From a bacterium (GTDB lineage: Bacteria > SZUA-79 > Acidulodesulfobacterales > Acidulodesulfobacteraceae): a stretch of 64,000 nucleotides of DNA. The translations under genes were made by a program, and so were the position numbers. Under the pieces are notes generated by a model. That model ran no database searches and was not told where the DNA came from. It saw nothing but the letters and a program-made list of their open reading frames with translations. The stretch covers positions 1 to 64,000 of the forward strand of contig JAJYJI010000002.1 of NCBI GenBank assembly GCA_021789605.1. Direction: 5' to 3'. Below are positions 43,483 to 49,374 of the stretch, piece after piece (the stretch's first letter is position 1; each line of letters begins with the position of its first letter).

Positions 43483-44589
43483 CTAAATATTTAAGATGTA
43501 ATGTGTGTTCCTGCCTGAACCTTTTTTTATAAGCATATTTTTTTCAAGCAAATACGAAATATCTCTATTGGCTGAATCCTGCGAAGATTTTGAGATTTTA
43601 GCCCATTTAGAAGAAGTAAGGTTGCCTTCGAATCCGTCAAGAAATCTGTTCAACACTTTTTTCTGCCTGTCGTTTAAAATTACTTCTGAATATTTCTGCC
43701 AAAAATGAGCCTTATCAAGCACGGTGGAAAGAGTTTCTTCCGCATTTTCTATCGCCTTGCGTAAACATTTTAAAAACCAGACAAGCCAGCCGGTTATATC
43801 CACGTCTTTTTTTTGCGTTTTTTCCAAAATATCGTAATAAGCATTTCTTTCTTTCATTATTTGAGCCGACATACTGTAAAATCTTTGAGACGTCCTTTCG
43901 GATTCAGCTAAAAGCATATCGGTAATAGCCCTGGCAATGCGGCCGTTACCGTCGTCAAAAGGATGAATAGTCACGAACCATAAATGAGCAATTCCTGCGG
44001 ATAAAACGTCGTGATTATCTTTCCTGTTAATCCAGTCTAAAAAACGCGTTAACTCTATATCTAAAACAGAAGCGTCCGGAGCTTGATAATGTATTTTCTT
44101 TTTTCCGACGGGACCTGAAACCACCTGCATTGAACCATTTTTATCATCCCTGAAACGACCTACTTCAATTTTATACATGCCGCTATAGCCGGTAGGAAAT
44201 AAAGACGCATGCCATCCAAAGAGCCTGTCTTTCGTTAAAGGTCTGTCGTAATGTTGAGTTGCGTCGAGCATCATTTCTACTATGCCCTCTACATCACGGT
44301 CGATATTAATTAATCCTTTCGTATATATACCTCCCGCATTAATACCAAGACGACGTGCGACGGAGGAACGCACCTGCTCTTTATTTAGAATTTCCCCTTC
44401 TACTTCGCTTGATTTTAAAATATCTTGTGTTAAAACATCGAGGACAGCTTCTTCTTTAAGGTTAAAGCCAAGGCTTTCCATTTTCCCGAGTAATAAACCT
44501 TGTAAAAACTTAACTTCCAAAAGAGGCTTTAAGACCTTTTCTCGATTCCATGTAAATTTAGGCCAGTTTGACCGCAGGTAGATGTACAT
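43483..44589 (-). CDS. Fic-domain AMPylase-type protein with winged-helix C-terminus
   Basis: Fic enzymes transfer AMP (or other nucleotides) to proteins. The core motif HPFDDGNGRIAR is at residues 209-220, with catalytic His 209. An N-terminal inhibitory motif SSEVEG at 60-65 with Glu 64 marks class II, self-inhibited by its own N-terminal helix. The last 60 or so residues look like a winged helix (SSKWAKISKSSQDSANRDI), suggesting DNA binding and autoregulation. The ribosome binding site GGAG is 7 nt before the ATG. The promoter carries a large palindrome (44591-44619). Confidence 0.9.
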   Translation of the reverse strand: MYIYLRSNWPKFTWNREKVLKPLLEVKFLQGLLLGKMESLGFNLKEEAVLDVLTQDILKSSEVEGEILNKEQVRSSVARRLGINAGGIYTKGLINIDRDVEGIVEMMLDATQHYDRPLTKDRLFGWHASLFPTGYSGMYKIEVGRFRDDKNGSMQVVSGPVGKKKIHYQAPDASVLDIELTRFLDWINRKDNHDVLSAGIAHLWFVTIHPFDDGNGRIARAITDMLLAESERTSQRFYSMSAQIMKERNAYYDILEKTQKKDVDITGWLVWFLKCLRKAIENAEETLSTVLDKAHFWQKYSEVILNDRQKKVLNRFLDGFEGNLTSSKWAKISKSSQDSANRDISYLLEKNMLIKKGSGRNTHYILNI

Positions 44590-44590
44590 A

Positions 44591-44619
44591 ATAATCTCCG
44601 CACTTTATGCGTAGATTAT
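44591..44619. promoter_or_regulatory. Palindromic operator candidate over the Fic gene start
   Basis: Two 12-bp arms, ATAATCTCCGCA and TGCGTAGATTAT, match as an inverted repeat at 11 of 12 positions around a 5-bp spacer. The palindrome covers most of the -10 box, the start site and the ribosome binding site of the Fic gene. A bound repressor would block transcription; the Fic protein itself is a candidate because of its winged-helix end. Confidence 0.6.
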
Positions 44620-44643
44620 AGCTCTTTTTCTCCGCAAAGTCAA
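44615..44643 (-). promoter_or_regulatory. Predicted sigma70 promoter of the Fic gene
   Basis: TTGACT and a perfect TATAAT with a 17-bp spacer lie 26 bp before the ATG. The leader would be about 20 nt. The -10 box overlaps the palindrome at 44591-44619. Confidence 0.75.
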
Positions 44644-47398: not shown

Positions 47399-48863
47399 AA
47401 CTATTCCTCCCTATGACCCTCTGAAGTTTTGCTAAATATACGTCGTATTCGTAAAGCGAGTCGTAATAATTTAATTCTGCGTGCTTAAGATATGTTTCAG
47501 CGTCAAGAACTTCCGTTGAGGTAGTAGTCTCCTGCATATACTGCATATTTGTAATTTTAAGGTTTTCTTCTGCCTGAATTACCGATAATTTTGCCGTTTT
47601 GATATTTTTGAAGGCAGTCCGTAGATTTAACAAATTGCTTTTAACCTGCAGCAGGACGTCGTTTATGTAAGATTTAAGCTGATATTTCAAAGCTGCCTCG
47701 TTATGTTTCTCTTTCTGGTAATTATCGGAAGTTTTAAACCAGTTAAACAAAGTCCATTCAGCGCTAAGTCCTATTAATTTATTTGCCTGATTGGAAAACT
47801 CGTTGCTTGAAGCAAGCCAGTTCTGGCCTGACTGGGAGTATGCGGCAAATACCATTATATGAGGATAATATTCGCTATTCGCGATGCCTTTCTTCAAAGA
47901 AACCTGCCTTATTCTAAGTTTAAAAATTTTAAGTCCGGGTCTGTGTTTCAAGGCATATTTAAAAAGACCGCTGAGCACGTATTTTTTAAAATTAACGCGG
48001 TTTATGTTCTTAAACCTGTCGTTTGCGTTTATATTTTGGTTAAGGGCGGTATTAAAAGCCGATACGGCGATATTCAGCGATGTTTTTGAAATAGCCTTAA
48101 ACTGCAGCGCATCTGCCATGGCTACTCTGGATTTTAATAAATCGTTATAAGGAATTACCCCCTGCTTGTACATAAGAGCAGCCTGTATTTCATGGGATTT
48201 TAGAGATTTTGCCTGTTCGTCCGCGACTCTTAGCTGCTCCTGTGCCCTTAAAACATTATAATAGGCTATTTTTACCCTTTCGATTATATTTAAGACTGCC
48301 TCATGTTCTTGAACGCTAGATATATTTACGCCTATTCCGGCAAGCTCCCTTTTGTCCATAAGTGCAAAACCGGTAAATACCGGCTGCGTTATTTCCGCTT
48401 CCCAGTTGAAATTAGCGGTCGAATTCATATATATTCTCGGCGGGAAGTACATATATCCGTTTTTTGCTCCAAGATTATTAAAGACGGGTATTTGATTGCG
48501 AGGCGTTGCTAGAAAAGGCTGATACTCCAATTTTGAAGCGTTATAATTAAAAGTTAATTTGGGCAGCATTTCAGCCGTAGATGCTTTAAAAGCGTAATCG
48601 GAAGATTTTATTTTTTCAAGCGCGCTTTTTATGAGGTCGTTGTTTTTTAAAGCTATTTTTACCGCGCTGCCGACGTTAAAAACGTTAGCCGCATGTTCAA
48701 CGCTTTTTGCCCGGGACGGAACGGCTCCGGACAGGCAGAAAAATATAAAAAACAATATAGCGCAAAAAGCAGGGGTATTTTGCCGCACACCTTTTAAACT
48801 ACTGCCGGATATTTTGTAAAAACCGCCTTTAAAATGAGTTGACTTTAGTGTTGTCGTTAGCAT
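47388..48863 (-). CDS. tolC: TolC-family outer membrane efflux protein
   Basis: TolC-like proteins form trimeric outer-membrane and periplasmic channels. Two repeated helical-barrel regions follow the signal peptide, with typical long amphipathic helices such as RVKIAYYNVLRAQEQLRVAD. The protein ends without a lipobox. The open frame starts with ATG at 48863, overlapping arsR by 35 bp. The hydrophobic signal segment begins near a GTG at 48788, which would give a more normal signal peptide; the start is therefore unsettled. Confidence 0.85.
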   Translation of the reverse strand: MLTTTLKSTHFKGGFYKISGSSLKGVRQNTPAFCAILFFIFFCLSGAVPSRAKSVEHAANVFNVGSAVKIALKNNDLIKSALEKIKSSDYAFKASTAEMLPKLTFNYNASKLEYQPFLATPRNQIPVFNNLGAKNGYMYFPPRIYMNSTANFNWEAEITQPVFTGFALMDKRELAGIGVNISSVQEHEAVLNIIERVKIAYYNVLRAQEQLRVADEQAKSLKSHEIQAALMYKQGVIPYNDLLKSRVAMADALQFKAISKTSLNIAVSAFNTALNQNINANDRFKNINRVNFKKYVLSGLFKYALKHRPGLKIFKLRIRQVSLKKGIANSEYYPHIMVFAAYSQSGQNWLASSNEFSNQANKLIGLSAEWTLFNWFKTSDNYQKEKHNEAALKYQLKSYINDVLLQVKSNLLNLRTAFKNIKTAKLSVIQAEENLKITNMQYMQETTTSTEVLDAETYLKHAELNYYDSLYEYDVYLAKLQRVIGRNSYGR

Positions 48864-49230
48864 TTTCCAATTTTTTTTTTAAAATCGGAATAAGGGTTTG
48901 CATAAGTATATTATCGTAATTTATACTGTAATTCATCCATGTCCCTTTTCTCCGCGTTTTAACTATATCGGCGTTTCTTAGTATTTTTAAATGAAAAGAA
49001 AGATTCGGCTGCGAAATTTTAAAAATATCGGTGAATTTGCATGCGCACATCTCTTCGTTGTCTATTAAAAGCCTCACGATTTCAAGTCTTACCGCATCCG
49101 ATAAGGCATAAAAGCCCAGCCTTAATAAATCCACCGAAGGCGTCACGCCTTCTTCATTTTTTTGTACCTCTACGGCAGACTGCGCGCCGTATAGGTAGCC
49201 GCATCCGCAGCCTTTATTATTTTTACTCAT
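48829..49230 (-). CDS. ArsR-family metalloregulator
   Basis: ArsR proteins repress their operon and release DNA on binding a metal or metalloid. The winged-helix core contains SQPNLSFHLKILRNADIV. Cys 62 and Cys 64 (MCAC) sit in the helix position of the arsenic-sensing ELCVC motif, and another pair, Cys 8 and Cys 10 (CGCG), lies in the N-terminal extension. As the first gene before tolC-emrA-emrB it is likely their regulator. An arsenical or soft-metal inducer is inferred, not shown. Confidence 0.85.
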   Translation of the reverse strand: MSKNNKGCGCGYLYGAQSAVEVQKNEEGVTPSVDLLRLGFYALSDAVRLEIVRLLIDNEEMCACKFTDIFKISQPNLSFHLKILRNADIVKTRRKGTWMNYSINYDNILMQTLIPILKKKLENANDNTKVNSF

Positions 49231-49250: not shown

Positions 49251-49331
49251 TTAGCAGCATTTAGAGTCTTTCTGGTTTTTTACGGCTTTCTGCATTGCTT
49301 CTTCTATCTCTTTTTTATCTATGTCCCATAT
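49251..49331 (-). other. Coding-like open tail without start codon, upstream of arsR
   Basis: The frame reads 26 codons of protein-like sequence (for example DKKEIEEAMQKAV) ending in SKCC and a TAA, 20 bp before the arsR ATG. No ATG, GTG or TTG lies between the preceding in-frame stop and these codons, except an internal ATG that would leave only 14 residues. It may be a gene remnant, or a leader read from an unusual start. Confidence 0.3.
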
Positions 49332-49344
49332 ATAAAATATTTTT

Positions 49345-49374
49345 TATATATTATTAAAACGCTAACAATATCAA
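49345..49374 (-). promoter_or_regulatory. Possible promoter of the arsR-tolC-emrA-emrB operon
   Basis: TTGATA and TATATA with an 18-bp spacer lie about 115 bp before arsR. The area is very AT-rich, so chance matches are likely. If used, the transcript would carry the SKCC-ending open tail in its leader. Confidence 0.35.

Follow-up and report, generated by a model that had tools for sequence, protein, structure and literature searches.

The Fic protein encoded in the window (the whole stretch of 64,000 nucleotides that was analysed) probably represses its own gene by directly binding an operator in its promoter, and we put the probability of this reading at about 0.88. The candidate operator is an array of three half-sites that is conserved in front of related fic genes, is restricted to fic promoters and varies in its letters together with residues of the recognition helix of the Fic protein. 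The preliminary description of this DNA had suggested, from a single palindrome, that the protein may repress its own gene. Both the conservation of the array in relatives and the covariation strongly support this suggestion. The features of the gene, promoter and protein are listed below, where L002 and L003 denote two closely related loci.

43483..44589, minus strand: fic gene, 368 aa, with the ATG at 44589
44591..44602, minus strand: half-site 3, TGCGGAGATTAT, over the GGAG ribosome-binding site (repeat search and PWM scan)
44596..44599, minus strand: GGAG ribosome-binding site, inside half-site 3 (sequence)
44608..44619, plus strand: half-site 2, TGCGTAGATTAT, from the -10 box to about the transcription start (repeat search and PWM scan)
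44615..44620, minus strand: -10 box TATAAT, 17-bp spacer, nearly all within half-site 2 (identical in L002 and L003)
44625..44636, minus strand: half-site 1, TGCGGAGAAAAA (third copy TGCGGAGA), in the -35/-10 spacer (PWM scan)
44638..44643, minus strand: -35 box TTGACT (sequence; identical in L002 and L003)
44608..44636, minus strand: 29-bp inverted dyad formed by half-sites 1 and 2, with half-site centres 21 bp apart
44591..44619, no strand: 12-5-12 palindrome formed by half-sites 2 and 3, with a 5-bp spacer (repeat search)
Fic protein residues 2-83: DUF4172 (Pfam)
Fic protein residues 60-65: class II inhibitory motif SSEVEG (sequence motif)
Fic protein residues 209-217: Fic motif HPFDDGNGR (sequence motif)
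Fic protein, about residues 307-366: winged HTH (modelled structure)
Fic protein residues 337-349: recognition helix of the winged HTH (modelled structure)

The palindrome was found as it had first been described, with two 12-nt arms (44591-44602 and 44608-44619) that lie 5 nt apart and are complementary at 11 of 12 positions (92%), and it overlaps both the GGAG site and the -10 box of the minus-strand gene. Taken alone it is not above chance, as there are eight such repeats in the 64-kb window compared to one to seven in six shuffles. Because an isolated palindrome is within chance for the window, the case rests on comparison. Together with half-site 1, the palindrome makes up a promoter array of the form -> <- ->, whose 12-mers start at -47, -30 and -13 relative to the ATG. 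No other match to the array, allowing up to two mismatches, was found in its own genome.

A further palindrome of 24 nt, with one mismatch and no spacer, is located at 49328-49351 in the window, upstream of an ArsR-type gene (48829-49230). It adjoins an efflux operon with MFS, HlyD-like and outer-membrane genes and may be the operator of the ArsR-type regulator.

According to Pfam, PDB sequence search, AlphaFold and Foldseek, the protein has the domain order DUF4172, Fic and winged HTH over its full length, and both the SSEVEG motif and the winged helix at the C-terminus were correctly recognised in the preliminary description. The class II motif ([S/T]xxxE[G/N], N-terminal to the Fic core and in the same chain) is present in 196 of 198 relatives and the catalytic motif HPFx[D/E]GNGR in 188 of them. 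The closest solved relative is CbFic2 of Coxiella burnetii (8CIL), which has the same DUF4172-Fic-winged helix architecture and about 40% identity (phmmer E 9.5e-97; TM 0.88 for the model).

The alignment of upstream regions of related fic genes, which had been named as a check on the palindrome, clearly shows that the array is kept. L002 and L003, one from the same genus and the other from another genus within the family, encode proteins with 78-79% identity to the window Fic and retain the promoter along with each of the three half-sites; farther upstream their DNA is unrelated. The first comparison set consisted of 84 loci, namely the window, the three closest loci and 80 loci from many phyla with 57-61% protein identity, which were obtained by scanning a genome collection. 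In these 84 loci the mean number of TGCGGAGAWTA half-sites per 140 bp is 4.3 versus 0.03 in shuffles, 12-mer starts lie exactly 17 bp apart 113 times in the (+,-) and 75 times in the (-,+) orientation, and many of the loci have two triplets. The half-sites are concentrated in the promoters, with a density of 27.8 per kb in the region from -150 to 0 before the start codon versus about 0.2 per kb in the remaining sequence within 4 kb. Searching 297 genomes of one phylum with the triplet pattern gave eight matches, seven of them directly preceding a fic gene (protein identity 53-59%), and a control pattern gave none.

We then considered an expanded family of 198 unique DUF4172-Fic-winged-helix proteins, which are 31-100% identical to the window protein. 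The 29-bp inverted dyad (at least 8 of 11 positions) was found upstream of 172 of the 198 genes versus 0.8% of shuffled regions; among the 26 loci with no clear dyad there are some with uncertain start codons or contigs. More distant Fic-domain genes have a comparable dyad in only 2 of 26 cases. At L019, a 29-bp dyad of TGTATACA (10 of 11) precedes one of the more distant Fic genes, which suggests that the 29-bp geometry may be shared by further Fic subfamilies whose HTH is C-terminal. One operator array (L117:1501-1590) has no adjacent fic gene, and an antitoxin-like/PIN-like small gene pair is found there on the opposite strand. L002 and L003 have a second -> <- -> triplet (TGCGGAGATTAGCTTATTTATTCTCCGCAGATTATGCGGAAG) just 3' of the fic stop codon, which is absent from the window and may be an auxiliary operator or what is left of a second fic promoter.

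The distribution of the sites bears on two readings in which the repeats are no protein-binding operator of fic. The repeats could be the ends at which a mobile cassette recombines or transposes, as the gene is scattered over phyla, relatives of it were found on 356 plasmid records at the thresholds used and L002 and L003 have the triplet past the stop codon. However, at nearly all loci the sites cluster in the promoter and have no counterpart set on the 3' side, and the half-site letters covary with the HTH, so that we regard this reading as extremely improbable. No phage record with a fic relative was found at the same thresholds. The palindrome could also work in RNA, as a hairpin that conceals the ribosome-binding site, since the GGAG lies within one arm. 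The other arm, however, holds the -10 box and is mostly upstream of the expected transcription start, and conserved half-sites are also found far upstream of the promoter. We rejected the hairpin, which has next to no chance of being correct, since no transcription of the -10 arm is expected.

The family has two main branches, distinguished by residue 338 of the winged HTH, a D338 branch of 136 genes with the half-site TGCGnnGAATA and an A338 branch of 56 genes with the half-site TGAGnnnAATA and variants thereof. At base 3, C accompanies D338 without exception (123 of 123 loci), and A accompanies A338 in 52 of 53. Within the D branch, T or A stands at base 5 whenever residue 337, the first residue of the recognition helix in the modelled structure, is H or K (10 of 10 loci), compared to 0 of 102 otherwise. 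Records for the three H337 proteins are from Nitrospira, Acidobacteriota and Chitinophagaceae, and the window protein has Q337. Within the A branch, G7 accompanies K337 in 18 of 18 loci and is absent from 22 of 23 with R337. When all columns are ranked, residue 337 comes top among 292 for base 5 (D branch) and among 323 for base 7 (A branch). On a tree from which the HTH was left out, independent changes went in the expected direction in 4 of 4, about 2.7 of 3 and about 2.3 of 3 cases, and almost none went against it (none in three tests). The sign tests give p values of 0.125, 0.25 and 0.5 singly and 0.06 when pooled; the single tests miss 0.05 because independent evolutionary changes are few. 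Two further candidate pairings were rejected, base 6 with residue 337, which has strong counts but just two supported independent pairs, and wing residues 359-360 with bases 8 and 10, which are confounded with ancestry.

There are also fic paralogues within one genome that have different recognition helices and matching different half-sites (L134/L162, L135/L163, L182/L236, L178/L227, L217/L218 and L150/L166). Such paralogues, together with the covariation, bear on the question whether a separate host regulator binds the sites and represses fic among other genes. TG...CA dyads are bound by many regulators, and the one operator at L117 exists with no fic gene beside it. Against a host regulator, the site accompanies fic across phyla with no conserved neighbour, is essentially unique in its own genome, follows the recognition helix of Fic in its letters and differs between the paralogous fic genes of one genome. 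We consider a host regulator very improbable.

The three half-sites of the D branch can be paired in two ways, as the -> <- dyad of half-sites 1 and 2 or as the <- -> palindrome of half-sites 2 and 3. An outer length of 29 bp is found more often than any other in the A338 branch (44 of 56) and is one of the most frequent in the D338 branch (90 of 136). In the A branch there are two successive dyads with a pitch of either 44 or 34 bp, which often end in the start codon; the gap between them is 5 or 15 bp, i.e. differs by one helical turn, and some loci have one -> <- dyad alone. The 29-bp -> <- dyad of half-sites 1 and 2 is most likely the binding unit, as predicted from these lengths; since the 29-bp length is kept in both branches, the <- -> palindrome is best understood as the place where a dyad meets an additional half-site. 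Because both spacings are fixed in the D branch, this preference depends on the A branch. The alternative that the 12-5-12 palindrome is the true dimer site and the half-site in the spacer is secondary, with autorepression otherwise unchanged, finds some support in the fixed spacing of the <- -> pair in the D branch (75 cases) and in its position across the -10 box and the ribosome-binding site. We find it unlikely, because only the -> <- length holds at 29 bp family-wide, whereas the <- -> gap in the A branch is either 5 or 15 bp and is missing in loci with a single dyad. The palindrome originally proposed as the operator is thus part of the conserved array, but with its variable spacing it is probably not the unit that is bound.

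From the array and its geometry we infer binding and repression, as well as their stoichiometry and the order in which the sites are filled. Fic would be produced from the TTGACT/TATAAT promoter, and a dimer joined via DUF4172 would set its two C-terminal winged helices on the 29-bp dyad, which covers the -10 box and the spacer between it and the -35 box. The third half-site, over the ribosome-binding site, would take another subunit or dimer and be filled at a higher protein level. Occupancy of the operator would exclude RNA polymerase, so that the self-inhibited AMP-transferase would stay scarce.

CccR of Yersinia pseudotuberculosis, likewise a class II Fic protein with a C-terminal HTH and inverted repeats in its own promoter, represses its own gene through these palindromes, which lie at the -35 and -10 boxes, and has to dimerise for DNA binding (PMC9755527). 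Its DNA-binding helices are 70.2 Å apart (PMC9755527), close to the 21 bp between half-site centres found here, which are two helical turns or about 71 Å of B-DNA. The footprint of CccR, which is a T6SS effector, consists of two 10-bp repeats 26 bp apart, AGATAATCAT-N26-ATGATAATCT (PMC9755527). The family described here differs from this 10-26-10 geometry, taken from the published description, in its 29-bp dyads, its 21-bp centre spacing and its third half-site.

Dimerisation of CbFic2 is driven by DNA of 20 bp and not of 10 bp (PMC10628234), a length close to the 21-bp half-site spacing. CbFic2 has been studied as a histone-modifying enzyme and binds random DNA sequences with high affinity, so that its sequence preference is unproven and a specific DNA site was left open by its authors (PMC10628234). 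DNA sets the enzyme activity of CbFic2, which suggests a link to the AMPylation state (PMC10628234). The preliminary description had raised such sensing for the window protein, and by analogy a coupling of operator occupancy to the AMPylation/deAMPylation state is only a possibility. A doubtful extension would make the operator DNA itself the 'antitoxin', such that binding to the dyads shuts the gene and also, by forcing dimerisation, keeps the enzyme in its inhibited or de-AMPylating state.

The Fic fold is common to the toxin-antitoxin pairs VbhT-VbhA, FicT-FicA and Doc-Phd, in which the inhibitory helix and/or the DNA binding reside on a second protein, with negative autoregulation in Doc-Phd. 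In the window protein, in contrast, the inhibitory helix and the HTH are both in one chain. The SoFic anti-phage system EcSofic-AS1 is likewise a single-protein Fic of class II and carries a C-terminal domain (PMC12249575). The PADLOC SoFic profile, which has no curated cut-off, matches the window Fic with 147 bits (E 1.9e-43), and its score with the NCBIfam SoFic equivalog NF046030 (50.3 bits) is far below the cut-off of 550. EcSofic-AS1 has a partner, AS1, of 47 residues. Here, the ORFs of at least 90 aa flanking fic were compared at 140 loci, and none of their families was shared by more than 4 of them; an AS1-like antitoxin of 47 residues would fall below this length threshold. A two-gene Fic toxin-antitoxin pair with a conserved partner of at least 90 aa was rejected on these 140 loci, which supports the single-protein switch that had been proposed instead of such a pair.

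Autorepression by a Fic-HTH protein has already been shown in kind through CccR (PMC9755527), and CccR was the only case that the open-access literature searched yielded, either for the motif or for a Fic operator. The 29-bp operator design, the triplet, the breadth and the residue-base code appear to be undescribed in that literature. Winged-helix Fic proteins are widespread, and the family offers a shared operator design together with a first residue-to-base code, both of which natural sequences from many phyla make readable. As the design and the code are readable, DNA binding, self-repression and the orthogonality of paralogues are directly testable. If the operator did act as antitoxin, one gene and its promoter would form a complete switch, and diverged specificity would let several switches coexist in one genome with no cross-talk. 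The family also illustrates how a single mobile gene can bring its control with it into any host.
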